Shown here in pieces: positions 44,911-63,788 of a stretch of DNA of 64,000 nucleotides. The DNA comes from Sulfurimonas sp. (lineage in GTDB: Bacteria > Campylobacterota > Campylobacteria > Campylobacterales > Sulfurimonadaceae). The first letter of the stretch is position 1. Each line of letters begins with the position of its first letter. Location: the NCBI GenBank assembly GCA_028687935.1, contig JAQTZE010000011.1, positions 1-64,000 of the forward strand. Reading direction: 5' to 3'. A model generated the notes under the pieces. The model was not told where the DNA came from and ran no database searches. It saw only the letters and a program-made list of their open reading frames with translations. The position numbers were made by a program, and so were the translations under genes.

Positions 44911-47900
44911 TTACTTCTTTATTGGCTTCACATTTAATAATTTGTCACGATTAAATGATGCCCAGATAATAATGACAGCTATAACACTAATAGCATAGTA
45001 TATCCATACTGGAACAGGGACCGGGTCACCTGCTGCATACGAATGTAAACCTGATAAGTAATAATTAACACCGAAGTATGTCATTATTATTGAAGAGTAT
45101 GCTACAACCGATACTGCATTAAAAATAAAGTTAGATTTTAAAACAGGGACAAAACGCATATGAGTCACAAATACATAGACTAATATACTAACAAGCGCCC
45201 ACGTCTCTTTAGGATCCCAACCCCAGTAGCGTCCCCAAGACTCATTCGCCCAAACGCCACCAAGGAAGTTTCCAATACTCAGCAGTGACAATCCAACAAT
45301 CATCGACATCTCACTAATACGTGTTGATTCTAAAATATTTACACTTAGCTGCTCTCTTTTACTCTCATTGCTCAGCATTATGTAGAAAATCAGCGAGACA
45401 AAACCAAGTAATGTACTCAATCCTAAAAATCCATAACTTGCTGTAATAATAGATACATGTATAGTAAGCCAATAAGACTTTAGAACTGGAACCATACTTG
45501 TAATCTGAGGGTCTAGCCAACTTAAGTGTGCAACAAAAAGAGTTACCCCCGCAAAGATAGCTGTAGTAGCAATTGCAAGTTCAGAACTCTTTGCAAAGAG
45601 AATACCTGCAAAGACAATTGTCCATGAGATATAAAGCATAGCTTCATAACCATTGCTCCATGGTGCATGACCGGCAATATACCATCTTAAGCCTAAACTA
45701 ATTGTATGTGCTATAAACGCAAGTACTAAAACAGCAAATATTATTTTCATGATCGTTACTATATTTAAAGTTGGTTTTGCCAATCGAATAAATATAAGGG
45801 AGAGAAGTATAAAACCTGCTATAAGATAAATTGGAAATAATCTATCAAATATTTTTAAATTATTATAAATCATTTCAGCCTTAATAATTGTTGAATCTGG
45901 AATGATTGCTTTTCCATACTTATACTGAAACTCTTTAATAGCATCTATGGCTTTGTTTGCACCATCCCAATCATCACTTTGTAAACCTTTACTCAAACCA
46001 ATCGAGTTACCCTTTAACAAAGCGAGAACTTCATGTGATAATTCTGGAGGAAAACTTTTAAGAGCTTCTTCTGGATAGTACCATTTATTATTTTCGTCTC
46101 CTTGAAGAGGAAAAACGCTCATAAAACGACCTGAGTAGACCATGTATGCAACATTAACTCTCTCATCTACCTTAATAATCTCTTTGTCATATTGATCTCT
46201 TAGTGCTGCTCTTTTACGCAGCGCTTCTTCTGCCAATGGAGCAAAGATATATGCTCCATGCTTATCAAAAGCTTTCGAAAATGAAAACATTTTTTGAGAT
46301 TCATCCATACCAAGTAATTTTTTAACTTTTGGATGAGTCGTTTTAATCATATCAATATTTTTCCACAAATCAGGGTTAGTTGCCATTCCTAATATTATTT
46401 GGTTATGGTTGAGACCAAACATACTGTCGCTACCTGTTATTTTGTTTAACAAATCAATCGCATGCGTATCTAATGGTTTTATTCTTCCATCAGGACCTTG
46501 AACTAACATAGTTGCATAATGGTTCGCATGGTTTAAATCAATTTTTTGATTTTCTGCTATAGGCGAAGCTAACAAAGGTTCACTTGTAAAAAGTGTTGCT
46601 ACTATCGCCATAGCTGCAAAAACACCAGCTTTATATTCATACTTAGAACGAGCAAGTTTTCCAAAACGACCATTAGGATTAAAAAGATTTAAAAACAGTC
46701 CTAACCCAAGAAGTATATATCCTAAATAAGTTGGCCATTTTCCAGGGTCATGATTTACAGACAAAATTGTTCCTTGTTCATCTTTATCGTATGATGATTG
46801 GAAGAATAAATATCCCCCATAATCAAGTGTATGATTCATATAAACTTTATGTTCTCTTTGAATAAGATTTGCTTTATCAATCAATGTCACATGACTTTCA
46901 TATGATGATGGGCTCATAGAACCGGGATATTTTAGTAATATAAAGTCGCGTAATCTTAATGAAAATGGCAACTCAATAATCTTAGCACCCCATTCAAGTG
47001 ATATCTCAGTATCTCCTATCTTAAGAGTTTCCGCATAGCCTTTATAGCGTTTTCCATTGCCCATCAAGGCAACTTCTCTATGCTCTCCATCATATGCAAC
47101 ATCGACTACCAATGCAGATATAGATTGCATTTTCATCTCCATTTTCATACTTTTTTTATACTCTTCTTCGCTAATAACTTCAGCTTTACCCTTGTTTATA
47201 ACTTCTTTTGTTACCAATTGAATTCCATTGATGTCGTACATACGTCTTTCATCAAACTTATACATTTCTCCTCTTTCGTATACACCCTTGGTATTATCAA
47301 TCATCTGTAGCCAGTTAATTGAGACATTTGATACAAAGAATATACCATTCTCATCACTTACTAATCTAAGAATAGGTTTGTTATTAGTTGTAGGTTCCTT
47401 GTCAAAGTAAACTGCCAATGGTCCTACATCAAGCACTTCTCCACTTTTTAGAACATATTTTTCAGGTCCCTGAGGTGTAGGAATAACAAAGACTACTATT
47501 GGTACTCCATTAGGGTCTTCAACAGCTGTTTTAGCAGCTTTATCTATAAACTTTTTATATGTAACAACTAAGTTCTTTCCATCAACTTCAAGAGTATTGC
47601 TAAAATCTCTTCCGCCAAGTTCTGAGACATACACTATATCTTCTCTATAAAATTCTTGAGAAGCTTTCTTTGCATTTATCTGCAAAAAAGCATCTGATGA
47701 GAGCATACGGTTCTCTGTTTCACCTTCACGAATATGCATAACCCCTTCATAACCATAATAACGAGTCACTCCAGAACCAATTAAAATAACTAGAAATCCA
47801 GTATGAAAAATAAAAGTTGGTATTTTTTTTAGAGTATAAAGCTTATATCTAATTATATTACCCACCAAACTAATTCCAAGAAGGACTTGAATAGCTTCAA

Positions 47901-48057
47901 ACCATCTGCTACTGTAGATAAGTGCCCATGAAGTATTGACCCCATAATCATTTTCTACAAATGTTCCTACTGCACTTGCAACTGCAAACGCAAGAATCAA
48001 AATCACCATTAATTTCATTGAAATTAAAAATGACCACACTCTACTTATAAGTGACAT
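44911..48057 (-). CDS. ccsBA: Fused ResB-CcsA cytochrome c synthetase (CcsBA)
   Basis: A 1048-residue system II heme lyase that exports heme and ligates it to CXXCH motifs in the periplasm. The N-terminal ResB-like half has membrane helices near 10-35 and 50-100 and a large periplasmic domain. The C-terminal CcsA half has the WWD signature WGRYWGWDPKETW about 95 residues from the end. Fused forms are typical of Campylobacterota. It is encoded downstream of the cytochrome cluster and probably matures those proteins, which may also need lyase activity toward non-canonical heme sites. Confidence 0.93.
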   Translation of the reverse strand: MSLISRVWSFLISMKLMVILILAFAVASAVGTFVENDYGVNTSWALIYSSRWFEAIQVLLGISLVGNIIRYKLYTLKKIPTFIFHTGFLVILIGSGVTRYYGYEGVMHIREGETENRMLSSDAFLQINAKKASQEFYREDIVYVSELGGRDFSNTLEVDGKNLVVTYKKFIDKAAKTAVEDPNGVPIVVFVIPTPQGPEKYVLKSGEVLDVGPLAVYFDKEPTTNNKPILRLVSDENGIFFVSNVSINWLQMIDNTKGVYERGEMYKFDERRMYDINGIQLVTKEVINKGKAEVISEEEYKKSMKMEMKMQSISALVVDVAYDGEHREVALMGNGKRYKGYAETLKIGDTEISLEWGAKIIELPFSLRLRDFILLKYPGSMSPSSYESHVTLIDKANLIQREHKVYMNHTLDYGGYLFFQSSYDKDEQGTILSVNHDPGKWPTYLGYILLGLGLFLNLFNPNGRFGKLARSKYEYKAGVFAAMAIVATLFTSEPLLASPIAENQKIDLNHANHYATMLVQGPDGRIKPLDTHAIDLLNKITGSDSMFGLNHNQIILGMATNPDLWKNIDMIKTTHPKVKKLLGMDESQKMFSFSKAFDKHGAYIFAPLAEEALRKRAALRDQYDKEIIKVDERVNVAYMVYSGRFMSVFPLQGDENNKWYYPEEALKSFPPELSHEVLALLKGNSIGLSKGLQSDDWDGANKAIDAIKEFQYKYGKAIIPDSTIIKAEMIYNNLKIFDRLFPIYLIAGFILLSLIFIRLAKPTLNIVTIMKIIFAVLVLAFIAHTISLGLRWYIAGHAPWSNGYEAMLYISWTIVFAGILFAKSSELAIATTAIFAGVTLFVAHLSWLDPQITSMVPVLKSYWLTIHVSIITASYGFLGLSTLLGFVSLIFYIMLSNESKREQLSVNILESTRISEMSMIVGLSLLSIGNFLGGVWANESWGRYWGWDPKETWALVSILVYVFVTHMRFVPVLKSNFIFNAVSVVAYSSIIMTYFGVNYYLSGLHSYAAGDPVPVPVWIYYAISVIAVIIIWASFNRDKLLNVKPIKK

Positions 48058-48154: not shown

Positions 48155-48706
48155 TTAATGTGTCGCTATTTTACCCTGTACATTTTCATCTGCCATATCA
48201 CTTTTCGGTTTATCTTTTTTAGGTTCTAGCGATGGTTGATGTATATTTTGATTTGGAAAGCTCTCTTCTTTTAGATTCTTAATATCAACTATAATCCATG
48301 TACCATTATGCTTTTCAAGTGTGTAGTGCATTTGATAAAATATATTCATCGGTTCTAATGCATAGTTTCTTTTCACTAAATCTGCATATCCAAATGTCCA
48401 GTTTTCCATAGTTCTAATTGTCGCATTGTCTTCATTATAAGCTATAGGAGAAAACCGCAAGTCATTGATCTGCGCAACCATGGCAAGATTACTAAACTTC
48501 CAAGAATCTGCCCAAACCATGAGCTTAAAAAATACATCTTCTGAAAGCATATCTCTTAGCAGCTGCGTATCACCGCTTTTTGTCATCTTAATGATGCCGT
48601 AGTTGTATTTAAGTAAAGTGTCTTTTATGCGTTTATCGTCATCGATATTTGAGTTCGCTATGCTTAATGTTGCAAAAAACAGTAGTATAAATAAAATTTT
48701 ATTCAT
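48155..48706 (-). CDS. Periplasmic NTF2-like protein
   Basis: A 183-residue protein with a signal peptide (about 1-17) and a fold pattern like NTF2/SnoaL domains: two N-terminal helices with LLRDMLSEDVFFKLMVW, then beta strands including WTFGYADLV, IFYQMHYTLEK and GTWIIVDIKN. The last ~35 residues are a Pro/Lys-rich polar tail. It follows the 693-residue cytochrome by 8 bases. A second, unrelated-looking NTF2-like domain is encoded at 53660-54409, so this fold recurs in the locus. Its role is unknown; binding or scaffolding is possible. Confidence 0.6.
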   Translation of the reverse strand: MNKILFILLFFATLSIANSNIDDDKRIKDTLLKYNYGIIKMTKSGDTQLLRDMLSEDVFFKLMVWADSWKFSNLAMVAQINDLRFSPIAYNEDNATIRTMENWTFGYADLVKRNYALEPMNIFYQMHYTLEKHNGTWIIVDIKNLKEESFPNQNIHQPSLEPKKDKPKSDMADENVQGKIATH

Positions 48707-48714
48707 ATCTCATC

Positions 48715-50796
48715 CTATGGCATCAAGTTGGCATCATAGCCACCATTATTTGAATTATGACACATACCACCGCCACCACAAGCTGGTGAATATGCATTGC
48801 CTGCAGTACCAACATCATTAGGATTATAAGGTCCTTTTTTCCAGCCTGTCATCTTCAGTGAATTTCCGCCATAGTTATATGGCGCCGGGAATGTTGAATA
48901 TCCTATTAGCCTTGATGTCGGCGAACCGTGGGGAATCACTAAATGGCACGTAACACAACTAAAACCTTTATTGGCCATTTGATTTCTCCACTTATCATGG
49001 GGATGCCTTATATCATGGCAATTTTTACACATGTTACCAGTATCTGTACCATTTTGAATATCATCCAATGTATATAGAGTAACACCGTCTGGCTTTTTCG
49101 GCCAATATTGATTCGCCCCTTTGAGAATATACTTCAAGTTTGAGCCATGTGGTCCTTTAGGATCTCCTCCAAGTTCATTATCCGCTCCATGACAATCAGA
49201 ACAGTACATGGTATTGAGTCCTGGGTTCTCTTTCCATGGTGTCAACAACTGAACCGCATTTAGTTCTCTTGGAGCATATGAACCTGTACGAGCTGACTGA
49301 TTGATTACTACAGGATGTCCGGATTTATTGTTAATATTCATCTCCCATGCTACATCGGTTAAGGGTGTAGTAAGATCACTATCTGAGACATGTCCTCCCG
49401 TATTGACACCCTTTACCGCATTCCCCATTCCCCAGTAAGAGTGGCATTTCAAACAAATCTGATACTCTTTTGTTGAAGATTCCAAAGTCTGAAAAGTTTT
49501 AGGCTGCGTCCATGCAGTAGGCCAAGACGGCTCTACTCCAGGGACACCCAGAAGCACATTTGATACTAAGTTTGTAGATGCTCCAGGAGCACCATACCAA
49601 GATCCATCGACAATATGTGTTCCTGCTTTGGCCTTATGTGGATTATGACAATCCATACACACCGCATGTTTATTTGTATCCCATTGCATACCTAAACCAC
49701 CATTTGGATCAGTTCTATCTCCACCAAAAAGTGCATCAAGGTTTGTATGTGCAGGAACTCCTCCACCCGGATTTACAGCTTCTGAAACTGGGTGCGTATA
49801 GAGTCTGCTTAACACAGACTGTATATCTTTAGCACCGCCTACACCGTGACATGCGGCATTGGCAATATCTGATGAGGCACCCTGAAAACAAGTTTGAGCC
49901 ATAATTTTTCTATTAAGATACGGTACTCCTTCTGCATTATGAGGTGTATGACAATTCACACAACCCAAATCAGACATCTTATCCGTTCCATATATCCCTG
50001 CAACACCGGATCCACTTTTATATACAGTAGCAGCAGGTGGTGAGTGATGAATACTCCCAACCCAATTAAGTTTATCATGACATGCCGTACATGTATTTAC
50101 AACATTTTGTGCGTGGTTTGCTCCAGTATCTACACGCAAAAACTTCTTGTTATCTTTGTGTGGATCATGACAGGATGAACATTCAACATACTGTTTTCCT
50201 CCGTATGTAAAAAGTTTTACCTGCGCATCTGCAGCCAATGTATTTTTAAGCTCAATTGTTCTACTGCCTAGATCAAAATTTTTGGTAACACCTGCTTTAT
50301 ACTCAATACCGACAGGATGATGCATTCTCAAATCAGTACCCAAAAATCCTACTGCCGTTGTCGGCATGGTGCCATCAGCTGCAACACCATTCATGGTAAT
50401 TAATGATGCACCGATAACCCCGTGAAGTACACTTACTGCTCCGATTGCTATCGTGCCATCATGACAACTCATACATTGACGAGACAAGGCACCAGGGGTA
50501 TCATTCGCTACTCCAAGATCTGATGCAACAGCTGGATAGCCCATTCTTTTCATATAATCACTATCATACATGGTATAGTTTGATGTAGGCATACTTCTAT
50601 TCCAGAGCGGTTTACCCGTTGTTTGAGACTGATGCGGTATGTGGCAAAAAACGCATACTTCTGTTTCTGTTTGCGCTTTTATGGGTCCCGATGTATTGCT
50701 TACGGAGAGGTTATGTTTTGTATTGACGATAGTAGCCGTAACAGGAACGCCACTGAATAAAAACAAGCTCAAAAGAGCCGTGATTATATACTTCAT
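48715..50796 (-). CDS. Large multiheme cytochrome c (10 canonical plus 2 atypical heme sites)
   Basis: A 693-residue exported cytochrome (signal peptide about 1-21). Ten CXXCH motifs are present, the first at C48-H52. Two further candidates are CX12CH (CFQGASSDIANAACH) and, near the C-terminus, CX5CH (CGGGGMCH). Residues about 23-245 are paralogous to the 242-residue tetraheme protein: KHNLS, CVFCHIPH, CMSCHDG, HHPVGIEYKAGV, YVECSSCHDPH, FLRV, then CTACHD. The rest is Gly/Pro-rich with widely spaced hemes, as in outer-surface cytochromes. It overlaps the NHL gene by 4 bases. It may be the terminal extracellular reductase or a filament cap; this is inference. Confidence 0.88.
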   Translation of the reverse strand: MKYIITALLSLFLFSGVPVTATIVNTKHNLSVSNTSGPIKAQTETEVCVFCHIPHQSQTTGKPLWNRSMPTSNYTMYDSDYMKRMGYPAVASDLGVANDTPGALSRQCMSCHDGTIAIGAVSVLHGVIGASLITMNGVAADGTMPTTAVGFLGTDLRMHHPVGIEYKAGVTKNFDLGSRTIELKNTLAADAQVKLFTYGGKQYVECSSCHDPHKDNKKFLRVDTGANHAQNVVNTCTACHDKLNWVGSIHHSPPAATVYKSGSGVAGIYGTDKMSDLGCVNCHTPHNAEGVPYLNRKIMAQTCFQGASSDIANAACHGVGGAKDIQSVLSRLYTHPVSEAVNPGGGVPAHTNLDALFGGDRTDPNGGLGMQWDTNKHAVCMDCHNPHKAKAGTHIVDGSWYGAPGASTNLVSNVLLGVPGVEPSWPTAWTQPKTFQTLESSTKEYQICLKCHSYWGMGNAVKGVNTGGHVSDSDLTTPLTDVAWEMNINNKSGHPVVINQSARTGSYAPRELNAVQLLTPWKENPGLNTMYCSDCHGADNELGGDPKGPHGSNLKYILKGANQYWPKKPDGVTLYTLDDIQNGTDTGNMCKNCHDIRHPHDKWRNQMANKGFSCVTCHLVIPHGSPTSRLIGYSTFPAPYNYGGNSLKMTGWKKGPYNPNDVGTAGNAYSPACGGGGMCHNSNNGGYDANLMP

Positions 50797-51815
50797 TTTG
50801 AACCCCTTTTTTTATCAGCGTCAAGCAGCTGAAAAACTTGCAATCGTTGGTTGTTTGTATCTGAAATATAAATAGTATCATCTTTGCTTATAGATATATC
50901 TTCTGGAAGTGCGAACTCACCATAGCCTACTCCATAATTGCCAAGTACCATCAGCAGCTCTCCGTTTTTATTAAAAATTTGTATATTATTAAACATTGCA
51001 TCACTTACATATATATTATTTTGACTATCAAGAGCTATTCCCCGTGGGCTTCCAAAATTTCCAATATTTTGACCTAGTTCACCAAACTTAAATAGAAAAT
51101 TTCCATCCTTATCAAGAATTTGAACGCGATGATTCATAGAATCTGAAATATATATTTTTCCATCATTCCCTATGTCAATAAAAGTAGGTCTGTTGAACGC
51201 TCCGTCTTGTGAACCATTTTGACCGATAGATTTAACAAATTCTCCCTTTAAAGTCGTAACATGTATCTGGCTTGCCAGGGCATCTACAATATAAAGATAT
51301 TTATCATCAGGACTCAATGCAATTCCAACCGGTCTCTGCATTACAGGCAGTGATATTGTATAGCTGTAATCTCCATCTTTCTCAAATACATATATTTTAG
51401 CCCGAACTGAATCTGAAACAAAAATATTTCCCTTAGCATCTGCAAGAACATCAATAGGATAAAGAAAAGTTTCCTTATCTGTCCCTCTAATGACAATATG
51501 CTCGTTATCTTTTTTATCAAAAATATGTAAAGCTTTGGAACTAGTATCTGTTACATAAACCCTTTCTTCATCAGTATGTATTCCAAAAGGTGAACTTATG
51601 ACAGGTTCTTCATCACCGATTACAAAATCATATACTTTGGAGAAAAAGCTCTTTTGCATCCCTAAATCTTTAAAATTATGAGCAGATGTAACATACTCTA
51701 TTCTAGGTTCATCCGGAGGGCAAGGCCAGACCAATTTTTGCATATCTTGCGCATAGAGACAATTGATACTGAGTAAAAATACACTTACTAAAACCAATCT
51801 ATTCATTTTTAACAT
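50793..51815 (-). CDS. NHL-repeat beta-propeller protein, periplasmic or secreted
   Basis: A 340-residue protein with signal peptide (about 1-22) and six NHL blades with motifs such as PFGIHTDEERVYVTDTSS, PIDVLADAKGNIFVSDS and PRGIALDSQNNIYVSDAMFN. Before the propeller comes WPCPPDEPRIEYV, a PPxxPxI element also present in the second NHL protein of this locus. NHL propellers are frequent companions of multiheme cytochrome clusters, possibly as assembly or docking factors. It starts 3 bases after the barrel gene and overlaps the 693-residue cytochrome gene by 4. Confidence 0.85.
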   Translation of the reverse strand: MLKMNRLVLVSVFLLSINCLYAQDMQKLVWPCPPDEPRIEYVTSAHNFKDLGMQKSFFSKVYDFVIGDEEPVISSPFGIHTDEERVYVTDTSSKALHIFDKKDNEHIVIRGTDKETFLYPIDVLADAKGNIFVSDSVRAKIYVFEKDGDYSYTISLPVMQRPVGIALSPDDKYLYIVDALASQIHVTTLKGEFVKSIGQNGSQDGAFNRPTFIDIGNDGKIYISDSMNHRVQILDKDGNFLFKFGELGQNIGNFGSPRGIALDSQNNIYVSDAMFNNIQIFNKNGELLMVLGNYGVGYGEFALPEDISISKDDTIYISDTNNQRLQVFQLLDADKKRGSK

Positions 51816-51818
51816 CCT

Positions 51819-53561
51819 TTAAAATTTACGCTCAAATCTTGCTTGTAAGGCATAACTGTTTCTACTTATGAGCGCACTATCCTCACCTGCAATTACTTTA
51901 CTATAAATATATCCAAGTGATATTTTTGTTTTTTGAGTACTATACGCTAAGTTATTATTTGCTCTATAGGTCATAATGTCATAAATCAAATCTGAATCAA
52001 CATTCATATCGCTTGTAAAAATTACTTTTGATCCAAATCTATATTTAAAACTCAAATCACCTTTTGGATTAAGGCGCTCTAATTTTGTCATACCATTCTC
52101 AACAGATGAATAACTAGCCCCAACTTTTGTTGTTAGCGTACCATTGATACCTATTTGTGAACTATTGCTAAGATAATCTTCAATAAGTATTGTATTGATA
52201 CTTCTATTCATAAAAACATCAAGATACCTAAGTTTAGATTCCTCTTTATAGTATGAGGTATTAAAATGATTTCTAACCAAAGAGTAGAGCATTGTCGTAA
52301 AAGTGAAGTCCGCATTATATCTTGCATCCTCTTCATCTAAAGTACTACTTGATTCGTTATATCCTACATTTATATTTGCTTGAGAATTGAGCGAGCTAAG
52401 GTCATGCGATAAACCAGCTCTTGCATAATATGTATATCTATTACTATTTGCAGAAACATTATTATCGCTCTTAAAAGTTCTCACATTGGCAGACAATGAT
52501 GAATTAATCCTTGTCTCTTTACTTATACTTTCTGAATAGTTAATGGCAGAACCTACACTCGAACTTTGAGTGGAAAGTATATCACTCGTTACAATACTAT
52601 GGTCTGCCTGTTGAGAAAGAGTTAAATTTTTTGTTATTTTATAAGCATACGCTTCTCTTAGAGTCATGCTTTCTGTAGTATTAAAACTATCTTCAATGTT
52701 AAAGCCATCTAAGCTTACTGACGCACTATGCTTAGTCTTTGGATCCCATCTTAAGTTAGCGTTTGCATATGTTGTTGATGAAGAGTAAGCCTCACTACCT
52801 CCAAATTCCTTCTCTCTATGGTAAGAGTATGTATCAAACGCAAATTCATCATTTATTTTCCATCTATACATAAGATTTATATTATCTTCTGTACTGTTTA
52901 TAGTCGTTTGAGTGGAATTTGTATAATTTCTTTGAACAATATCCTCAATATTGCTATAGTCTAGTTGAAAATTATAATTTTCTTCTTGTTTTCTAATAGA
53001 ATTACTATATGTTTTTGTATTTCTGTCTTCAAAATTTAAGAAACTTTCATATTGGGTACTCATATCTGTTGCGCTATAGGTGTAATCAAAAAAATTAAAA
53101 TCGATCGATCCGGAGATACCTTTTGACTCAGAACTATTTAAAGATCTAATAAGGCCAGCTTCATATACAACAGAAGTTGGTCTGTCACTTTTTTCTGCAT
53201 ATATTCTAAATGGCATGCTACTATCTCTTAAAAAATTGAAATCCACCTTATAGTCTTGACTTTCAACTTTTATTTTTGATGCTTCATCATTAAACTTTGT
53301 ATCTACATCTTCGTATCGTAAAATACCCATGAGTGAGTAATCCAATAGTTTTGGATTATATATATTTCCTCTATATCCAAGTCCATACTCTTGCACAAAC
53401 TTATTCTCTGAGCTCTTTGACTCATCACTCTCATATCCATTTGATAAATAACTTAGTCCTAATCTCCCCTCAAACCCTCTATCCTTATATACAGATGAAG
53501 ATGCAAATAATCCGGGTGCTTCGGGAATTCTTGCATATGAATCTTGTGATTTTTTTAACAC
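51819..53561 (-). CDS. Large outer-membrane beta-barrel, conduit candidate (5' end frameshifted)
   Basis: From the GTG at 53561 this is 580 residues of repeated amphipathic strands ending in a C-terminal phenylalanine (ALQARFERKF), a classical barrel signal. It has no signal peptide. Its frame stays open upstream through a Ser/Glu/Lys-rich linker to the A10 tract at 53701-53710, where a one-base change joins it to the exported protein of 53660-54409. The natural product is therefore probably one protein of about 880 residues: signal peptide, NTF2-like domain, linker, barrel. Between NHL and cytochrome genes it is the best candidate for the porin of a porin-cytochrome conduit. Confidence 0.75.
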   Translation of the reverse strand: MLKKSQDSYARIPEAPGLFASSSVYKDRGFEGRLGLSYLSNGYESDESKSSENKFVQEYGLGYRGNIYNPKLLDYSLMGILRYEDVDTKFNDEASKIKVESQDYKVDFNFLRDSSMPFRIYAEKSDRPTSVVYEAGLIRSLNSSESKGISGSIDFNFFDYTYSATDMSTQYESFLNFEDRNTKTYSNSIRKQEENYNFQLDYSNIEDIVQRNYTNSTQTTINSTEDNINLMYRWKINDEFAFDTYSYHREKEFGGSEAYSSSTTYANANLRWDPKTKHSASVSLDGFNIEDSFNTTESMTLREAYAYKITKNLTLSQQADHSIVTSDILSTQSSSVGSAINYSESISKETRINSSLSANVRTFKSDNNVSANSNRYTYYARAGLSHDLSSLNSQANINVGYNESSSTLDEEDARYNADFTFTTMLYSLVRNHFNTSYYKEESKLRYLDVFMNRSINTILIEDYLSNSSQIGINGTLTTKVGASYSSVENGMTKLERLNPKGDLSFKYRFGSKVIFTSDMNVDSDLIYDIMTYRANNNLAYSTQKTKISLGYIYSKVIAGEDSALISRNSYALQARFERKF

Positions 53562-53659: not shown

Positions 53660-54409
53660 TTAAGAGAGTATCATTATGCTCTGGAGGTTGGGGTGCAAGC
53701 TTTTTTTTTTACTACTATCTAATACTAAAGAGTCTGTTTTTAGAAATTCAAGCTCTTTTAGACTTTTATCAATATATGGCATAAGAAGTAAAGACTTTTT
53801 ATAAGCGCCCTCTTCCCAGGCTTCTTGTGTTATTTTACACTCTGTTTTTGCTTTATCACAGCTGACATGTAAAGTTTTATATCCCTTATCACATCTTGTG
53901 CCTGTAGTATATTCCTGATAAAATTTGATAATATAATTATTCTCATCTATTTTTTTAGAAACCGGATCTGTAATAATAGTTGAAATAGAATCGGTGTTAC
54001 TAAATATTTTCTGTTTTCTATCTGGCCACAAACTATTATTGATAAAAGAGTTATCATAATGCGAGGCGTATGTTTCAAATTCTCGAGACTCCCAGCTCTT
54101 TTTCCAAGAGTCTAAAAAATCGTTTAACTTTACATCTATTGTATCAAATACGCTGCTCTTCAACTCTAAGAGCAGCTCTCTCGCCTCTTTTTGTTTATTA
54201 TTTTTAATCATCTCACATGCATTATAGTAACTCTCAAGTATTTCTTGCAAGTCTTGCGTTTTTATAGGTTTTTTTAAACCAGAGTTTTTAAATAAACTCT
54301 CATTGCACTCTTCTTTTTCTATTGTCGACGCTACTGTTTTATGCTCATTCTCCATGGCTGAGAGAGTTAAGAGTGTAAATAATAGAATAAGAAAAAGCCT
54401 AAGCATCAC
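53660..54409 (-). CDS. Exported NTF2-like domain protein, probable N-terminal part of the barrel protein
   Basis: A 249-residue frame with signal peptide (about 1-18), a helical segment (about 45-85, with NKQKEAREL) and an NTF2-like domain (about 95-200: FLDSWKKSWESREFETYASHY, then IKFYQEYTTG and CKITQEAWE). After DSSKKK it runs through the A10 tract into 16 residues that look out of frame (SLHPNLQSIM). With one more A the frame continues as KLAPQPPEHN into the barrel. It is therefore likely not an independent gene. It lies 90 bases after the peptidyl-prolyl isomerase. Confidence 0.7.
   Translation of the reverse strand: MMLRLFLILLFTLLTLSAMENEHKTVASTIEKEECNESLFKNSGLKKPIKTQDLQEILESYYNACEMIKNNKQKEARELLLELKSSVFDTIDVKLNDFLDSWKKSWESREFETYASHYDNSFINNSLWPDRKQKIFSNTDSISTIITDPVSKKIDENNYIIKFYQEYTTGTRCDKGYKTLHVSCDKAKTECKITQEAWEEGAYKKSLLLMPYIDKSLKELEFLKTDSLVLDSSKKKSLHPNLQSIMILS
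53701..53710. repeat. A10 homopolymer at the joint of two gene halves
   Basis: Ten T on the plus strand (A on the coding strand). Ten A end the upstream frame early; eleven or eight A would fuse it to the outer-membrane barrel. Tracts of this length are prone to slippage in replication and transcription, and also to sequencing error. Confidence 0.8.
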
Positions 54410-54499: not shown

Positions 54500-55435
54500 T
54501 CATGATACAAATACTGCCTTTGATTTCAAGTTCTCAAGTAACTTTGATTTTTTATCTTCTTCCATGCTTTTTTTGAGGTCTACAGCTAATTTCTTTTTCA
54601 CAGCATCAAATGAAAGCTGATTTTCTGCTGTTTTATCTTCAACTCTTACGATAAAAAAACCTATATCTTCCTCGATAATTTCACTCGTTGTATTGACATC
54701 CATGGAAAAGGCTTTTTCTTCAACTGAAGGCTCAAGCATACCTTTATGAGTATAGCCCAAGTCACCGCCTTTTATACGACTCATTGCTGTAGAGTATTTC
54801 GCTGCTACATCTGCAAAATTTTCACCGGACTTTAGTTTTTCATAGGCCTCTTCAATTCTATTTTTAGCCTTGCTTTTCCCCTGCGGGTCAGTAGGATCAT
54901 TTCGTACATAGATAATCTTTGCTACAATCTTTTGCGGCTCTTTAAACTTATGTTTATTTTTATCATAATACGCTTTAAGGTCCTTCTCTGAGAGAGTTGT
55001 TTCAATCTTTTCTTTATGAAGTTGTTTTAACATCTCTTCTTTATAAATAACTTCTTTTAAACTCTTGAGTGTAAGTCCAGATTTACTGAGAGACTCATTG
55101 AGTTTTTCCGGAGTTTCAAGTAGTTTTTTTAATTTATCGATACTTGCATCGATATCACTGTTTGAAACTTTAATTCCAATCGATTTGGCATATTGAAAAA
55201 GTAATTCATTCTCTACCAATTCTGCGAGAACTTTATCTTCAAACACTTTCATCTGCTCATTTGAGAGAGTTCCATGATAGTATCGCGTCGGAAACAACGC
55301 TCTTACCCCACGGTCGAGTTCACTTTTTGTGATTTTTGTGCCATTAACAGTTGTAAGTACATCTGTAGCAGCCAAATCCGCAGGCTTTGCATATAAACAA
55401 CTTAAGCATATTAAAATCGATACTATACCTTTCAA
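54500..55435 (-). CDS. SurA/PpiC-type periplasmic peptidyl-prolyl isomerase
   Basis: A 311-residue exported chaperone: signal peptide (about 1-16), a SurA-like N-terminal helical part (TKSELDRGVRALFPTRYYHG..., about 35-125) and a parvulin domain (about 130-240) with YEKLKSGENFADVAAKYS, GGDLGYTHKGML and FSMDVNTTSEII. It would assist folding of the barrel or the many proline-rich cytochromes. Such isomerases recur in multiheme cytochrome loci. It starts 19 bases after the NHL lipoprotein gene. Confidence 0.9.
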   Translation of the reverse strand: MKGIVSILICLSCLYAKPADLAATDVLTTVNGTKITKSELDRGVRALFPTRYYHGTLSNEQMKVFEDKVLAELVENELLFQYAKSIGIKVSNSDIDASIDKLKKLLETPEKLNESLSKSGLTLKSLKEVIYKEEMLKQLHKEKIETTLSEKDLKAYYDKNKHKFKEPQKIVAKIIYVRNDPTDPQGKSKAKNRIEEAYEKLKSGENFADVAAKYSTAMSRIKGGDLGYTHKGMLEPSVEEKAFSMDVNTTSEIIEEDIGFFIVRVEDKTAENQLSFDAVKKKLAVDLKKSMEEDKKSKLLENLKSKAVFVS

Positions 55436-55454: not shown

Positions 55455-56522
55455 TTATATTTTTTTCAGTTCCAGATACTTTTCTGGATTGTTTTTTTTC
55501 CATCTCTCACTTACATATTGATAAATTTGCACTCTTGCATTAAATCCATCTACGATGTATATCCTATCATTTCCATCAATATACATACCTGTTATAAGTG
55601 AAAAATTACCTATACTTCTGCCCGTCCCTCCAAAATAGATGAGAAGCTCTCCACTCTCATTGAAAACTTGTATATTGTTAAACGCAGAATCCGTTACATA
55701 TATGTTTCCATCACTATCAATTCCAACACCTTTAGGTCTTGCAAACATTCCGGGTCTGTCACCGATTTTTCCAAACTTTTTGATAAATTTTCCATCTTTA
55801 TCAAAAATCTGCACACGAAAGTTCTGAGTATCAACTACTACAATATTTTCATTTCTCTTATCAATGGCAATATTTGTCGGAAAGTTAAATTCCCCATCTT
55901 CTTTGCCTCTCTTTCCAAACGAAAAAAGCTCTTCACCCTCCAGCGAATAAACTTTAATATTATGATCTTTTGTATCCACTACATAAAGTCTCTTTTGTTT
56001 ATCACTGATGGCGATGTCTGCTGGTCTGTTAAACTCTTTCTCTTTGCCAATGGCTAAAACAAGATGACCATCTGATCTATCGTAGGCCAATACTTTAGCT
56101 GCCTTTGCATCTGCCACATATATTTTGCCATCATCACTCAGTGCTATTCCAACAGGAAGAGAGAGTTTACCGGGGGAACTGGCTCCAATATAAGAAACTT
56201 TTCCTTGAACTTCATCTATCACAAAAACAGCGCCGATAGCCGTATCTGATACATACACTACATTTTTGCTAGCAGCAACTCCATAAGGCTTTGCAAGGTT
56301 CTTATTTTCCGATGAAGCTACTTCTCCAATAAAATTATCTAAAGTATTCTGTTTGACAAAACTGATATCGCCGCGATAGGCTGTATCAAAAAAGATTTTT
56401 GGCTCCTCTGGTGGGCCGGGTATCACAATTTTTATAGCTTCTTGTTTTTGACTACAAGCAGTGAACAAGACAAGAGTGAAAATATACATATATACTTTTA
56501 AAAAACTTTTAAACACAAACAA
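55455..56522 (-). CDS. NHL-repeat beta-propeller lipoprotein
   Basis: A 355-residue lipoprotein (lipobox LFTAC, Cys23; an alternative start is Met12). The mature part begins with the PGPPEEPKIFF element shared with the NHL protein at 50793, followed by six blades such as PYGVAASKNVVYVSDTA, PADIAISDKQKRLYVVDTKD and PKGVGIDSDGNIYVTDSAFN. Anchored to the outer membrane, it could hold or guide cytochromes. It follows the tetraheme gene after a strong hairpin. Confidence 0.87.
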   Translation of the reverse strand: MFVFKSFLKVYMYIFTLVLFTACSQKQEAIKIVIPGPPEEPKIFFDTAYRGDISFVKQNTLDNFIGEVASSENKNLAKPYGVAASKNVVYVSDTAIGAVFVIDEVQGKVSYIGASSPGKLSLPVGIALSDDGKIYVADAKAAKVLAYDRSDGHLVLAIGKEKEFNRPADIAISDKQKRLYVVDTKDHNIKVYSLEGEELFSFGKRGKEDGEFNFPTNIAIDKRNENIVVVDTQNFRVQIFDKDGKFIKKFGKIGDRPGMFARPKGVGIDSDGNIYVTDSAFNNIQVFNESGELLIYFGGTGRSIGNFSLITGMYIDGNDRIYIVDGFNARVQIYQYVSERWKKNNPEKYLELKKI

Positions 56523-56595
56523 ACCTTTTTGAAAATTTAAAGTACATTACAGAACCATGATTATCGTCATGCAAGAGATTAGTTAAAGAAGACAC

Positions 56596-56629
56596 TATAA
56601 GAGGGGGAGTCTTCTCCATCCCTCTTATA
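56596..56629. terminator. Strong hairpin 3' of the tetraheme gene
   Basis: A 10-bp perfect stem (TATAAGAGGG/CCCTCTTATA) extended inward by GGAG/CTCC with a two-base bulge and a TCTT loop. It begins 10 bases after the tetraheme stop codon. The minus-strand transcript has no clear U-run, so it may reduce read-through and protect the 3' end. Confidence 0.65.
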
Positions 56630-56638
56630 AATGTAAGA

Positions 56639-57367
56639 CTATTTTGCGTGACATCCTAAACAAAGAGCGCTGCCAGCATTTTGAACTCTTAAGAATGCAA
56701 CCGAACTTGCATTCTTACTATCCGCACCATTATGTGGATCATGGCAAGAGCCACACTCAACATAATCAAGACCACCAGTTGTTCTTAGAAGACCTTGAAT
56801 AGTTGTAGCTCCGGTCCATCCAGTTATAGCTGTAGCTTTAGCTTTTAATCCTGCTACACCTGGCTTATACTCAATTGAAACTGGATGGTCATTGCTTAAA
56901 TCAGTTCCTATATTTGAAGCATTGCCAGTTAACCCGAGAGTCGCAAAGCTTTGTGCATTTGTACCAATAAATGCATCACCATCAGCAGTTGCAAGGCCAC
57001 TACCCGGAGCGTTTACTACAGAGTTGACCGCACTTACACCATCGTGACAACTTAAACATGCCATAGAAGAAGCATTAACAGTCGCGTTATCACCTGCATG
57101 ACCGGCTGTCGTTCCTCCAACAGTAGTGCCATACAGTGTAAATGGACCTGCGGGTGTTCCTTTATTCCAAATTGGTGCACCAGTGAAAGACGTATTCGCG
57201 GCGTGCGGCGTGTGACAATAGACACAAAGCTCACCGTTATCCTCAGTTCCACCACCCGTCCATGCAGTGTTACTTAAATCATGCGCCGTACCAGTAATAC
57301 CCGCCGCACCCCACAATGAAACAAACCCCGTTAACAAAATCCCCATGACTATTTTTACATTAATCAA
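56639..57367 (-). CDS. Exported tetraheme cytochrome c, OmcE-like filament subunit candidate
   Basis: A 242-residue protein with signal peptide (about 1-21). Four CXXCH sites (C48-H52, C104-H108, C205-H209, C236-H240) come with extra histidines suited to bis-His ligation: H29 in AHDLS, H55 in CHTPH, H161 in DHPVSIEY and H212 in CHDPH, plus H90. Size, four hemes and low-complexity Gly/Ala/Thr loops recall the tetraheme extracellular filament cytochrome OmcE of Geobacter. The start is TTG with GGAG 7 bases upstream. It has its own promoter and is flanked by hairpins, as for an abundant single-gene product. Filament formation is inferred, not shown. Confidence 0.85.
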   Translation of the reverse strand: MINVKIVMGILLTGFVSLWGAAGITGTAHDLSNTAWTGGGTEDNGELCVYCHTPHAANTSFTGAPIWNKGTPAGPFTLYGTTVGGTTAGHAGDNATVNASSMACLSCHDGVSAVNSVVNAPGSGLATADGDAFIGTNAQSFATLGLTGNASNIGTDLSNDHPVSIEYKPGVAGLKAKATAITGWTGATTIQGLLRTTGGLDYVECGSCHDPHNGADSKNASSVAFLRVQNAGSALCLGCHAK

Positions 57368-57430
57368 GTTTAAACTCCTTTTTTGTGTTGAAGTATGTTA
57401 TAAGTAATAACTATACTTTCTACTGCTAGT

Positions 57431-57459
57431 ATTATAACTATTTTCTTAATTGATTTCAA
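57431..57459 (-). promoter_or_regulatory. Consensus sigma70 promoter of the tetraheme gene
   Basis: On the minus strand TTGAAA (57459-57454) is followed after exactly 17 bases by TATAAT (57436-57431). The transcript would start about 55 bases before the TTG start codon. Confidence 0.75.
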
Positions 57460-57491
57460 GTAAAACAGTGATGACTTTAATTTCAATGTGT

Positions 57492-57528
57492 ACAAAAGTA
57501 ACACTTTGTAACAAAGTGTTACTTTTGT
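57492..57528. terminator. Perfect 17-bp hairpin after the octaheme gene
   Basis: ACAAAAGTAACACTTTG pairs without mismatch with its complement around a TAA loop. It begins 7 bases after the stop of the gene at 57535 and lies before the tetraheme promoter, separating the two transcripts. Confidence 0.8.
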
Positions 57529-57534
57529 GATATT

Positions 57535-58563
57535 CTATTTTTTATGACATCTACTACATACACTAAAAGGCAGTGAGCCCTTCATTCTAAGCAACATAGT
57601 TCCCCTTGAACCATGAGGGTTATGACAACTAGTGCAAGTCAAGTCTCTACCTGGTCTTGCTGGGTCTTTTCTATTTTTAGTTGGATGTCCACCTGTAGTT
57701 GTTTGTCCAAAGCCGATAGAAGATATCACATGTTTACCATCAGCTTTTTCAGCGTGGCATGTAACACAAAGTTCCCAAATAGGCTTACGAAGAAAAAATT
57801 CATTATCAGATCCATGAGGATTGTGGCAGCGTTCACATCTTCCATCATTTACTGCTCCATGACCGTACTTGCTTGCCTGCCAAGTATCTACATCATCATG
57901 ACAATTTCCACAAGTTTCTGCTATGGGATCTGGTGCAAGATATTTTGATGCACCCCCATCGTCCATATTATACTCTCCAGGCTTGCCGTTATGACACTCT
58001 GTGCATAGCCAGTTACTAACGGGTGCATGCGTATTTTTGGTCTTAAGCATGCCTTGATGACATGAATAGCATGTTGTTTCAGTTACATCTTCAAACGGCT
58101 TATTGTTTTTTGGAATATTTGATGTCATATCGTGGCAAGACTTACATTTGTCCTCATTTTCTTTTGTATGAAAATACTCAGACTTATATTCTTCAACACT
58201 ATCTTCATCGATCCCCTCAAAAAGCTCAGATAAAAAATAAAAGTCCTTTTTAGTGGTCTCAATTAACTTAGAATCTTTATAACAAGTGATACTCACTTTA
58301 TCTTGAGCAGTATGAAGTTTTATAGTCTTACAATACGTTTTCTTATTTGACATTACCTCTACCGCATAAGTGTCATTATTATCTAGAGTAATTACTATTT
58401 TATCCACGCGTTTAGGATCTGTTTCTATAACCAAAGTACAGTTTTCACCGGAAAATCGTACTTTATCAAGCGGATGTAAAACTTTAATAGATGAAGTGGC
58501 GGGCTCTTTTGCATTGCCGTTTAAAACGACAAAAAGCAAAAGAAATATTTTTATAAATTTCAA
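57535..58563 (-). CDS. Octaheme cytochrome c with N-terminal beta domain
   Basis: A 342-residue exported protein (signal about 1-18). Residues about 25-110 form a beta-rich Ig-like segment (VIETDPKRVDKIVITLDNNDTY). Eight CXXCH sites follow: CKSCH, CYSCH, CTECH, CGNCH, CERCH, CVTCH, CTSCH, CSRCH. It includes the doubled-CXXCH style elements CHNPHGS and LCVTCHAEK. It is paralogous to the genes at 60332 and 61339, sharing the APVSNWLC and GRCERCHNPH landmarks. It starts 7 bases after the 12-heme gene. Likely periplasmic or outer-surface electron carrier. Confidence 0.9.
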   Translation of the reverse strand: MKFIKIFLLLFVVLNGNAKEPATSSIKVLHPLDKVRFSGENCTLVIETDPKRVDKIVITLDNNDTYAVEVMSNKKTYCKTIKLHTAQDKVSITCYKDSKLIETTKKDFYFLSELFEGIDEDSVEEYKSEYFHTKENEDKCKSCHDMTSNIPKNNKPFEDVTETTCYSCHQGMLKTKNTHAPVSNWLCTECHNGKPGEYNMDDGGASKYLAPDPIAETCGNCHDDVDTWQASKYGHGAVNDGRCERCHNPHGSDNEFFLRKPIWELCVTCHAEKADGKHVISSIGFGQTTTGGHPTKNRKDPARPGRDLTCTSCHNPHGSRGTMLLRMKGSLPFSVCSRCHKK

Positions 58564-60331: not shown

Positions 60332-61342
60332 CTATTTCTCATGACAACGTGTACATAGTCCATGAACAGTATCATCCACTAAAAGTGAAGAAGCATTTGA
60401 AGCGTGCGGATTATGACAACTGATGCAACTCAGATCTTTTCCGGGTCTTGATGGATCTTTTTTGTTATGAGTTGGATGCCTGATACTTGTAAATGTTCTT
60501 ACTATATGCACACCTTCAATTTTATCTTTATGACAGCCTGTGCAGAGTTCCCATGCTGGCGTTCTTAAATAAAACTCACTTTGTTCCGAATGTGAGTTGT
60601 GACATTTATTACATCGTCCGGACTCTGCAGGTTCGTGATTAAAACGCTTTTTACTCCATTTATTTTTGTTTTTTTCATGACAAGAGAAACAAACGTCTCT
60701 TATTGGATCCGGATAAGTATATTTTGATTTGTTTTTATCGGCTTGGTTATATATACCGACTTTACCGTTATGGCAAGAAGTGCAGAGCCAATTAACTGCC
60801 GGAGCATGTGCATGTTTTTTACTTGCAAGAGTACTATGGCATTTATAACAGTTTGATTTTGAAATATCTTCAAAGGCTACGCCGGGAACTTCATTCACGC
60901 TCATATCATGACATTTGGAACAAACTTTTTCATTAGTATTATTATGAAAAAAGTTTGTACTGTACTTATTTGGCGGATATCTATACTCTTTGTGCACCTT
61001 TGATGTAAGAAAAACCGTCTGTTTTTCCTGCTTTACAAGAGTAGCCCCCTTGTAAGCATTTACGCTTATGTTGTTTTCGCCTAAATGTAAATTTATTTTT
61101 TTGCAATAGTGCGTACGCGAGGAATTGACACTTAGATGGAAAGTTTCATTCATGTCATTGCTGATTACTATAGAATCAATAGCAGCACTCTGTACTTCAA
61201 CTACAACGGAAATGACATTTTCTTCACTTATGCGTGCTACTGGTGGATTTACTATTTTTAATATCTCTATAGGCTCCGCAAAAAGTGGGAGTGAAAACAG
61301 TAGTGTAAAAATTATATATTTTATATATGTACAATTTTTCAC
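60332..61342 (-). CDS. Octaheme cytochrome c, paralogue of 57535
   Basis: A 336-residue exported protein (signal about 1-22) with a beta-rich N-terminal domain (about 30-110) and eight CXXCH sites: CSKCH, CYKCH, CTSCH, CFSCH, CNKCH, CTGCH, CISCH, CTRCH. Landmarks APAVNWLCTSCHNGK, SGRCNKCHNSH and PSRPGKDLSCISCHNPH match the paralogue at 57535. It overlaps the 7-heme gene by 4 bases, so the two are translated together. Confidence 0.9.
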   Translation of the reverse strand: MKNCTYIKYIIFTLLFSLPLFAEPIEILKIVNPPVARISEENVISVVVEVQSAAIDSIVISNDMNETFHLSVNSSRTHYCKKINLHLGENNISVNAYKGATLVKQEKQTVFLTSKVHKEYRYPPNKYSTNFFHNNTNEKVCSKCHDMSVNEVPGVAFEDISKSNCYKCHSTLASKKHAHAPAVNWLCTSCHNGKVGIYNQADKNKSKYTYPDPIRDVCFSCHEKNKNKWSKKRFNHEPAESGRCNKCHNSHSEQSEFYLRTPAWELCTGCHKDKIEGVHIVRTFTSIRHPTHNKKDPSRPGKDLSCISCHNPHASNASSLLVDDTVHGLCTRCHEK

Positions 61343-62271
61343 TTTATTGCCTTATTTGGTGTCTTTTTTAAAAAAAATGGCTGGTTTGAAGCATGAGGAG
61401 TATGACAATCGATACATAATCTTCCATAACTGGCACCGCATGCACTGATTTTGCTTTGCATTGCACGAGTATTTTGACCTTTATGGCATCCAAGACAAAT
61501 CTCGTTAACCGGTTTTCGCACAAACATTGAGTAAGGACTCGAATGTGGATTGTGACACTTATTACAGCGTCCGGAGTCAAGAGGTTCATGATGGTATTTT
61601 GAACTGTTCCATAGCTCCTGATTTTCTTCATGACACTTAAAGCATGTCTGATTTACAGGACTTAGAGTGCCGTATTTAGATTCTTTTACACTCTTTAAAT
61701 CATGGCAGCTTATACATAACCAGTTAGCTGCCGGAGCGTGAGCATATTTCTCTTTGACAATATTTTTATGACATAAGTAGCAATTTGATTTTTTCACATC
61801 CATAAAGGCTACACCTTTTGTTTCATTTGCCTTCATATTATGACATTTGACACATTTAGCTTCATTGGAGTCGTTATGAAAAAAATTTTGTTTATATATC
61901 TCAGGCGGAAATTTATACTCATGATAGAGTTGTGATGAGACATATATATGCCTAGTATTTTCATTAAGCATCACTTGATTTTTGTAAGCGCGTATACTGA
62001 TTGTATTTTCTCCGAGTCTGAGTAAAATATTTTGGCACTTCATTGTTTCAGAGCTATTTAAATCTAAAGTAATCTGTTCAAGTGGTGTATCTATTGTCAT
62101 AGTATCAATACCATTCTCTTTTATCTTCACAACAACATTCATACTCAATTCGGTTTGTAAGCTATTATCTAGCGGAGAGAGAACTGTCATCACGGTATCA
62201 GCTTGAAGCATATGGAAACTGCCGCCCCATAAAAATATGACAACAGTTAAAAAAAAGTGAGTCGGCTTCAT
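61339..62271 (-). CDS. Heptaheme cytochrome c, paralogue of the octahemes
   Basis: A 310-residue exported protein (signal about 1-24) with the same beta-rich N-terminus and seven CXXCH sites: CVKCH, CYLCH, CISCH, CFKCH, CNKCH, CLGCH, CIDCH. It ends soon after CHTPHASN and lacks the last heme found in the paralogues at 57535 and 60332. It overlaps both neighbours by 4 bases. It appears to come from tandem duplication with loss of the C-terminal heme. Confidence 0.9.
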   Translation of the reverse strand: MKPTHFFLTVVIFLWGGSFHMLQADTVMTVLSPLDNSLQTELSMNVVVKIKENGIDTMTIDTPLEQITLDLNSSETMKCQNILLRLGENTISIRAYKNQVMLNENTRHIYVSSQLYHEYKFPPEIYKQNFFHNDSNEAKCVKCHNMKANETKGVAFMDVKKSNCYLCHKNIVKEKYAHAPAANWLCISCHDLKSVKESKYGTLSPVNQTCFKCHEENQELWNSSKYHHEPLDSGRCNKCHNPHSSPYSMFVRKPVNEICLGCHKGQNTRAMQSKISACGASYGRLCIDCHTPHASNQPFFLKKTPNKAIK

Positions 62272-63788
62272 TTACCGATTCCTTTTGGATTGACACGGTC
62301 GTACTCAAATTTTTTATGACATGCCGGAGCACATGAGCCGCCATCAGCAGTTTCTATGTATCGAAGTGGAAATTTTATACCGTTAAAATCTGTATAATCA
62401 CGGATTAAATGCGTATATTTAGAAGCATGTTCGTCATGGCATGCCCTACAAGACCTTCCTTTTCTGTCATTGACATGCAAATAATGCAGATTAACTTCCC
62501 CGTCTCTAAACGCGGTAATATTGTGCTCTTTTGAAGTCGTTATGAACTGTGTTGTAATTTTTTTCTCTGTATGACATTTAAAACAGAAAAAGTCTTTATT
62601 TTCTAAATCAGCATAAAAGTTTTTAGTGAATGATTTTCTCAAAATACTAAAGTTATCTGAACCGTGTGGATCATGACACGCTGAGCAGCCTCCCTCTTTT
62701 TTGGCATCTTTAATCGGTTTATGCCAGTTTGGATTTTCTTCTAAATGTTTTTTCATATTTATTAGCATTCCGCCGTCCTCGTCAGACTTGATTTCCTTGT
62801 CATGACAACTAAGGCATGTAGCTACTATATCTTTTTTAAGTAAGTTCTTATGTTTTGTCGCATGCGGGTCATGACACTCCAGACATCGTTTTTCACTTGT
62901 ATTTACCCCACCATGTTTAAACTTCGAATGTGTTGTTTTTTCTTTTACTTCATCGTGGCAATCTAAACATAAATCCATCTTTGCATCAAGAGAAAGAAGT
63001 GATTTATACTCTGCTGTATGTGCATCGTGACATTCTAAACAACTTTTTTCTACAATAGGTTTATGTTTAACTTCTAGATTCATATCGACAAACTGTTTTT
63101 TTGCTTTGCCGCTAAATGTACTTTTACGATCATGACACTTCATGCATAAAGCATTTATAGAATTCTCTTTGAGCAGGCCCTTGGTATTTGACTGATGTGG
63201 ATCATGGCAATCCATACATTTTCCATCTTTCGCAGGAGTATGGTCAAACTTTTTCGTATATCGAGTTTTGTGGCACTCATAGCATATATCTGCAATGTTT
63301 TTTTTGATAAGTTCTCCGGGATTGTTATTTTTTGATGTATGGCATATCTGACATGCCCCCATTTTAAATGGCTCATGAAGATACTGTTTGAGTGGTTTAA
63401 ATTTGGCAGGTAAATCTTCAAGCTTTACAATTTTTGCTTTTACTGCCTGCGTTTTCATATGTGTAGGAGTTTCTTCTTCTCTGATCTCATCAATGCGAAT
63501 CTCTGGTGGTGCTACCGCTGCAAGAACCAGCGCTTCTTTTTTCCTATCAATAGAAGTTTTAAATTCTTGAGCAAGTTTAGTGATATTGATATCGTTTAAT
63601 TCATCCTCCGTTATTGAAAAATTCTCTTCTTCATACGCATGTTTAGCGTTTTGAAGATTATAGGTAATATTGCCCATAATCGCCACAAAACGACCAAATT
63701 TTTCTGAAACACCATATACTTGAAATAATAATGTACCAATTAATAGCAACAACACCATTGCTACTATTTTCTTTATATGCTGTTTCAT
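62268..63788 (-). CDS. Dodecaheme-type cytochrome, paralogue of 58571 (11 CXXCH plus one CX3CH)
   Basis: A 506-residue protein with an N-terminal hydrophobic segment (about 8-27) that may act as an uncleaved anchor, a polar linker (about 40-130) and eleven CXXCH sites, from CQICH to CRACH, then GGSCAPACHKK (CX3CH). About 100 residues longer than its paralogue, mostly in the N-terminal linker. A membrane anchor would place it as the inner-membrane or periplasm-spanning part of the relay. It overlaps the 7-heme gene by 4 bases and starts 20 bases after another cytochrome gene. Confidence 0.9.
   Translation of the reverse strand: MKQHIKKIVAMVLLLLIGTLLFQVYGVSEKFGRFVAIMGNITYNLQNAKHAYEEENFSITEDELNDINITKLAQEFKTSIDRKKEALVLAAVAPPEIRIDEIREEETPTHMKTQAVKAKIVKLEDLPAKFKPLKQYLHEPFKMGACQICHTSKNNNPGELIKKNIADICYECHKTRYTKKFDHTPAKDGKCMDCHDPHQSNTKGLLKENSINALCMKCHDRKSTFSGKAKKQFVDMNLEVKHKPIVEKSCLECHDAHTAEYKSLLSLDAKMDLCLDCHDEVKEKTTHSKFKHGGVNTSEKRCLECHDPHATKHKNLLKKDIVATCLSCHDKEIKSDEDGGMLINMKKHLEENPNWHKPIKDAKKEGGCSACHDPHGSDNFSILRKSFTKNFYADLENKDFFCFKCHTEKKITTQFITTSKEHNITAFRDGEVNLHYLHVNDRKGRSCRACHDEHASKYTHLIRDYTDFNGIKFPLRYIETADGGSCAPACHKKFEYDRVNPKGIGK

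Follow-up and report, generated by a model that had tools for sequence, protein, structure and literature searches.

Does a tetraheme cytochrome gene of a Sulfurimonas genome encode a subunit of an extracellular filament like that formed by OmcE of Geobacter sulfurreducens, and do the genes around it encode the parts that would connect such a filament to the cell? The gene lies in a stretch of 64,000 nucleotides from Sulfurimonas sp. (contig JAQTZE010000011.1, positions 1 to 64,000), hereafter the window. The initial annotation had described its product as an OmcE-like candidate filament subunit, expressed from its own promoter between two insulating hairpins and surrounded by genes for assembly and conduit parts. 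The open reading frame, which uses TTG as its start codon, contains the four CXXCH motifs (C48-H52, C104-H108, C205-H209 and C236-H240) and all four additional histidines (H29, H55, H161 and H212; 4/4) that had been listed for a 242-residue secretory protein, and a ninth histidine falls in a variable loop. We built a family profile from 79 relatives of the window protein. Among the eight histidines that would be the axial ligands of four bis-His hemes, seven, including the N-terminal H29, are kept in 79/79 family members and H55 in 77/79.

The 242-amino-acid protein was compared with all PDB sequences by phmmer. Residues 9-242 matched PDB 7TFS, the OmcE filament (E=1.3e-30), and nearly the full length matched PDB 9YUQ (E=3e-25), after which the next matches were cytochromes c3 with E values above 1. 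The 79-member profile, a search that the annotation had proposed as a check, matched 7TFS at E=7.8e-54 and OmcS at 2e-6, the latter in a local match only. In a masking control, every Cys and His was masked and 2000 shuffles served as the null. The masked profile still found 7TFS (7.2e-35) and 9YUQ (1.2e-26), with a best shuffle E of 0.88, and the masked pairwise comparison of 7TFS with the window protein gave 5.6e-10, with a best shuffle E of 25. Since the homology persists with all Cys and His masked, the OmcE match exceeds the shared heme motifs. Judged by its sequence, the Sulfurimonas protein is a genuine OmcE-family member, homologous over its full length and with the axial histidines kept, and the proposed presence of an OmcE-like protein in Campylobacterota is borne out, as the gene belongs to a Sulfurimonas genome. 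The family itself is already known, and the protein does not represent a new kind of system. Pfam and NCBIfam returned only generic doubled-CXXCH matches. An AF2 model of the family protein was weak (pLDDT 57.5); with this model, Foldseek gave no match at E ≤ 0.001, and a VIA comparison had 7tfs as its sole row (Z 4.9, rmsd 5.8, 130 residues aligned).

Geobacter OmcE and the window protein are about 39% identical over the full length, share the four CXXCH motifs, the four conserved distal histidines and a signal peptide, and both end right after the fourth CXXCH, with Lys. They differ in that OmcE (7TFS) is a solved filament whereas the Sulfurimonas protein is known here from its gene, in that the two are very far apart in the family tree, and in that the window gene sits in a cluster of NHL, peptidyl-prolyl isomerase (PPIase), barrel, NHL and undecaheme genes. 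The putative multiheme cytochrome c of 9YUQ also belongs to the OmcE family (4/4 distal histidines), but it groups with an uncultured Desulfuromonadales protein in the tree. Geobacter OmcS (PDB 6EF8) is a hexaheme protein of 407 amino acids that resembles the tetraheme window protein only locally, at one heme-binding stretch, without full-length homology. Membership of the window protein in OmcS was rejected on its four hemes and this local match.

The genes around the OmcE-family gene are listed in Table 1. They are transcribed in the order monoheme, 11-heme, 8-heme, OmcE, NHL lipoprotein, PPIase, beta-barrel, NHL, 693-amino-acid cytochrome, small protein and CcsBA, so the initial view that conduit parts lie around the tetraheme gene fits a conserved cytochrome, barrel, NHL and PPIase cluster that flanks it on both sides. 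The 11-heme protein shows local similarity to MtrA (8e-16) and is 66-84% identical to its counterparts in other Sulfurimonas. The genome, 2.58 Mb in size, has all its doubled-CXXCH family matches confined to a single island, that of the OmcE cluster. The same genome carries NapA and two heme-copper oxidase genes.

Table 1. Features of the OmcE-family locus, from the highest to the lowest position in the window (aa, amino acids).
Feature	Position	Strand	Remark
Further 8-, 7- and 11-heme cytochromes (336, 310, 506 aa)	60332..63788	-	
Monoheme cytochrome c, 109 aa	59823..60152	-	part of conserved cluster
11-heme cytochrome, 407 aa	58571..59794	-	local MtrA similarity
8-heme cytochrome, 342 aa, doubled-CXXCH type	57535..58563	-	
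Upstream hairpin, 17 bp perfect, 3-nt loop	57492..57528	-	z -5.0
Promoter-like site TTGAAA-N17-TATAAT	57431..57459	-	11/12 match
Ribosome-binding site AAGGAG of the OmcE-family gene	57375..57380	-	7 nt 5' of TTG; read directly
OmcE-family tetraheme c-type cytochrome	56639..57367	-	242 aa, Sec signal peptide, 4 CXXCH + 4 distal His
Downstream hairpin, directly 3' of the OmcE-family stop	56592..56634	-	-20.8 kcal/mol, z -3.5
NHL beta-propeller lipoprotein, 355 aa, UetH/I-like	55455..56522	-	
PpiC/SurA-type peptidyl-prolyl isomerase, UetB-like	54500..55435	-	
ORF with signal peptide and NTF2-like (Cds6_C) domain, probably the frame-shifted N-terminal part of the barrel gene	53660..54409	-	
Putative outer-membrane beta-barrel ORF, 580 aa, C-terminal Phe, UetC-like by position	51819..53561	-	
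NHL beta-propeller, 340 aa, UetH/I-like	50793..51815	-	
Undecaheme cytochrome, 693 aa, UetJ-like, N-terminal OmcE-like tetraheme domain	48715..50796	-	
Small secreted protein, conserved beside the undecaheme gene	48155..48706	-	
CcsBA-type cytochrome c heme lyase, second genome copy	44911..48057	-	43% identity to the other copy

The arrangement resembles the undecaheme electron transfer (Uet) cluster, uetABCDEFGHIJ, of Ca. Tenderia electrophaga, which is also found in some Gallionella and has been given a role in electron uptake in Tenderia (PMC10734462, PMC12575090). As in Uet, going by these descriptions, one cluster of the window combines tetraheme and undecaheme cytochromes with a PPIase, a barrel and two NHL proteins. 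Between the barrel and the NHL gene, however, the window has neither the triheme UetDEG nor UetF; a ccsBA takes part instead, as do an 11-heme and an 8-heme cytochrome, which lie on the other side of OmcE. We therefore call the cluster Uet-like and not Uet, as the triheme UetDEG are absent from their place. The window barrel showed no recognizable similarity to a gammaproteobacterial barrel. A comparable arrangement, likened here by description, is the OetABI/OmcX cluster of syntrophic sulfate reducers, in which proposed filament cytochromes lie beside a barrel:cytochrome conduit (PMC10553843). Sulfurimonas that reduce MnO2 are mentioned in PMC11748539 and would need an outward flow of electrons, as opposed to the uptake assigned to the Tenderia Uet.

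We then turned to the undecaheme neighbor. The 693-amino-acid protein has 10 CXXCH motifs, as against 11 in Uet, and one CX12CH (C303, C316, H317; 49846-49890). This site aligned to Cys-Cys-His in 21/21 homologs, including those with 11 CXXCH, and the proteobacterial homologs have an ordinary CXXCH in its place. The 10 CXXCH together with the conserved CX12CH point to 11 hemes. The first ~245 residues correspond to an OmcE domain, at 38% identity and with 7TFS at 3.7e-24, and HHalign aligned this N-terminus with the OmcE family over the whole domain (probability 100, E=6.7e-57); the N-terminal His of the domain is invariant. An AF2 model of the protein was unusable (pLDDT 36). The undecaheme protein thus starts with an OmcE-like domain, which is a new feature. 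Since this domain could stack onto OmcE subunits, with the C-terminal hemes leading elsewhere, the protein most likely forms a filament end or acts as an adaptor. In Wolinella, special CcsBA isoenzymes handle unusual heme motifs; by analogy, the second CcsBA copy may serve the unusual CX12CH site.

Taken together, we consider it probable that the Sulfurimonas OmcE-family subunits polymerize into an extracellular cytochrome filament that is wired by the Uet-like conduit, with the undecaheme protein as its end or adaptor. Mature subunits, each carrying four bis-His hemes, would be exported and would most likely polymerize head to tail outside the cell. In OmcE filaments, a heme is ligated by a His of the adjacent subunit (PMC9473688, PMC12954529), and H29 is a plausible candidate for the ligand of the neighboring subunit's heme. 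The Uet-like conduit would consist of the barrel, the PPIase, the NHL propellers and three cytochromes (11-heme, 8-heme and undecaheme); it would assemble the filament and join it to the periplasm, and then to the quinone pool via the NapC-type cytochrome of a second cytochrome set that adjoins the cluster. The undecaheme protein, as filament end or adaptor, would wire the OmcE filament to the barrel and to the 11- and 8-heme cytochromes. Even for Geobacter, it is disputed what cytochrome filaments do physiologically (PMC11077965).

The same genes could serve a cytochrome that does not form long filaments. The protein might be an OmcE-fold cytochrome that stays monomeric or forms short oligomers; at the cell surface, it would then be the terminal cytochrome of the Uet-like conduit. 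Its domain is also fused into the undecaheme protein, so the fold is not reserved for filament subunits, and for UetA the description of Uet goes no further than an extracellular tetraheme cytochrome. However, the N-terminal His is present in every one of the 79 family members, one protein of the family, 7TFS, has been solved as a filament, and the tandem copies found in several genomes, together with a separate transcription unit, suit a major subunit. We regard this alternative as unlikely, although it is the strongest competitor of the filament.

Another alternative, less likely still, concerns the strain itself. The ORF with the signal peptide is found on one side of a minus-strand A10 run (53701-53710), the sole A/T run of at least 10 in the 64 kb, and the barrel ORF on the other, in a different frame and without a signal peptide there. 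In several relatives, the two nearest among them, the barrel is a single ORF of 755-786 amino acids. The split may be an error of the assembly, it may come from phase variation or slippage, or the gene may truly be broken. If this strain carried a broken or silenced cluster, the cytochrome might be left without a route of exit. Against this, an assembly error is equally likely, all of the remaining cluster genes are open, and BLAST found no match between the N-terminal barrel extension of the relatives and that of the window. Finally, a generic soluble periplasmic tetraheme carrier, resembling OmcE in its CXXCH and His motifs only, would agree with the generic Pfam and NCBIfam matches but is highly improbable, since it is refuted at the level of sequence homology by the masking control and small periplasmic carriers such as cytochrome c3 do not match better than E=1.

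We also examined the signals around the gene. The promoter that had been proposed for it was found: the TTGAAA-N17-TATAAT site (an 11/12 match) is, jointly with one other site, the best in 16 kb, and it is the sole exact copy in the window, with 0.11 expected in shuffles. Both of the proposed hairpins exist, one upstream that is perfect over its 17 bp and a strong one downstream, and both lack a canonical U tract when read on the strand of the gene. The upstream one is best read as the 3' end of the preceding 8-heme gene, because it sits just past the stop of that gene (57535). To survey the downstream position, we folded the 75 nucleotides that follow the OmcE stop in 26 genes, from the window and from relatives in Campylobacterota, Nitrospirota, Nitrospinota and Aquificota. 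A strong hairpin follows the stop in all but one or two of them, mostly with z from -2.5 to -6 against single-base shuffles and often with a T run. This hairpin after the OmcE gene, present in nearly every relative examined, is a new observation. Its position is kept while the sequences differ among relatives, which suggests a terminator or 3' stabilizer that separates the OmcE transcript from the following genes. The hairpin may also raise the amount of OmcE, and we infer that the gene is highly expressed. Rfam gave no matches in the 48-64 kb region of the window; a known RNA element is accordingly unsupported for the flanking hairpins, and terminators or 3' stabilizers fit best.

The cluster is found well beyond this genome. 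Other Sulfurimonas have the same gene order. Slightly changed, and containing between one and three copies of OmcE, the cluster recurs in further families of Campylobacterota, and it is conserved in at least four families of this phylum. Among 135 Sulfurimonas genomes, 18 carry OmcE and 19 the 11-heme gene, with both in 18; this co-occurrence gave a Fisher p of ~2e-21, uncorrected for relatedness, and the lone genome with the 11-heme gene only is 87% complete. In two of the OmcE carriers the genome is a single contig, 2.49 and 2.74 Mb long. The part from OmcE to the undecaheme gene is also found in Nitrospirota, Nitrospinota and Aquificota. In beta- and gammaproteobacteria we saw an order of NHL, tetraheme, PPIase, barrel-like, triheme genes, NHL and undecaheme, the gene content described for Uet of Ca. 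Tenderia electrophaga. In a quick family tree, the window protein groups with Sulfurimonas proteins (98). Proteins from Campylobacterota, Nitrospirota, Nitrospinota and Aquificota are intermingled in this tree, and Geobacter OmcE is placed at a great distance. The intermingling would fit an exchange between phyla, without proving it. At three Nitrospirota and Nitrospinota loci, the cytochromes of the OmcE-to-undecaheme module are ~50% identical, which likewise suggests transfer between phyla.

These distributions extend OmcE-type nanowire genes to sulfur-oxidizing Campylobacterota (Sulfurimonas, Hydrogenimonas and others), the single-contig Sulfurimonas genomes included, and tie the OmcE family to the Uet-like conduit of cathode- and iron-oxidizing bacteria. 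The OmcE-headed undecaheme protein becomes a concrete candidate for how a cytochrome filament attaches to the cell, and conductive cytochrome filaments become a testable prediction for the Sulfurimonas group. More tentatively, with the balance somewhat against it, Uet-type conduits in several phyla might be OmcE-filament machines, in which UetA polymerizes and UetJ, with its OmcE domain and further hemes, acts as a dedicated terminal piece splicing the filament to the barrel-cytochrome conduit, helped by a dedicated CcsBA in Campylobacterota and Aquificota. A full-text literature search for OmcE with Campylobacterota or Sulfurimonas, and for the phrase 'OmcE-like', returned nothing relevant; an earlier mention is possible in the OmcE structure paper, in the cytochrome-nanowire survey and in the Tenderiales paper that defined Uet.

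Several further features of the loci were observed. In other Campylobacterota families, a pair of response regulator and sensor-kinase-like genes lies directly before the OmcE gene or genes (at three loci and others similar to them); the pair is absent from that place in the window. The second multiheme set adjoins the OmcE cluster here (8, 7, 11 and 3 hemes plus the NapC-type 4-heme protein; 60332-63788 and positions 3809-4999 of locus L032), its 3-heme and NapC-type genes coming next past 63.8 kb and the end of the window; in relatives the set is on the opposite strand or elsewhere. The same contig has a mobile-looking region ~15 kb beyond the cytochrome cluster, with a transposase-like fragment (27071-27628), an integrase-like ORF (25400-26491) and restriction/defense-like genes at 1-24 kb.
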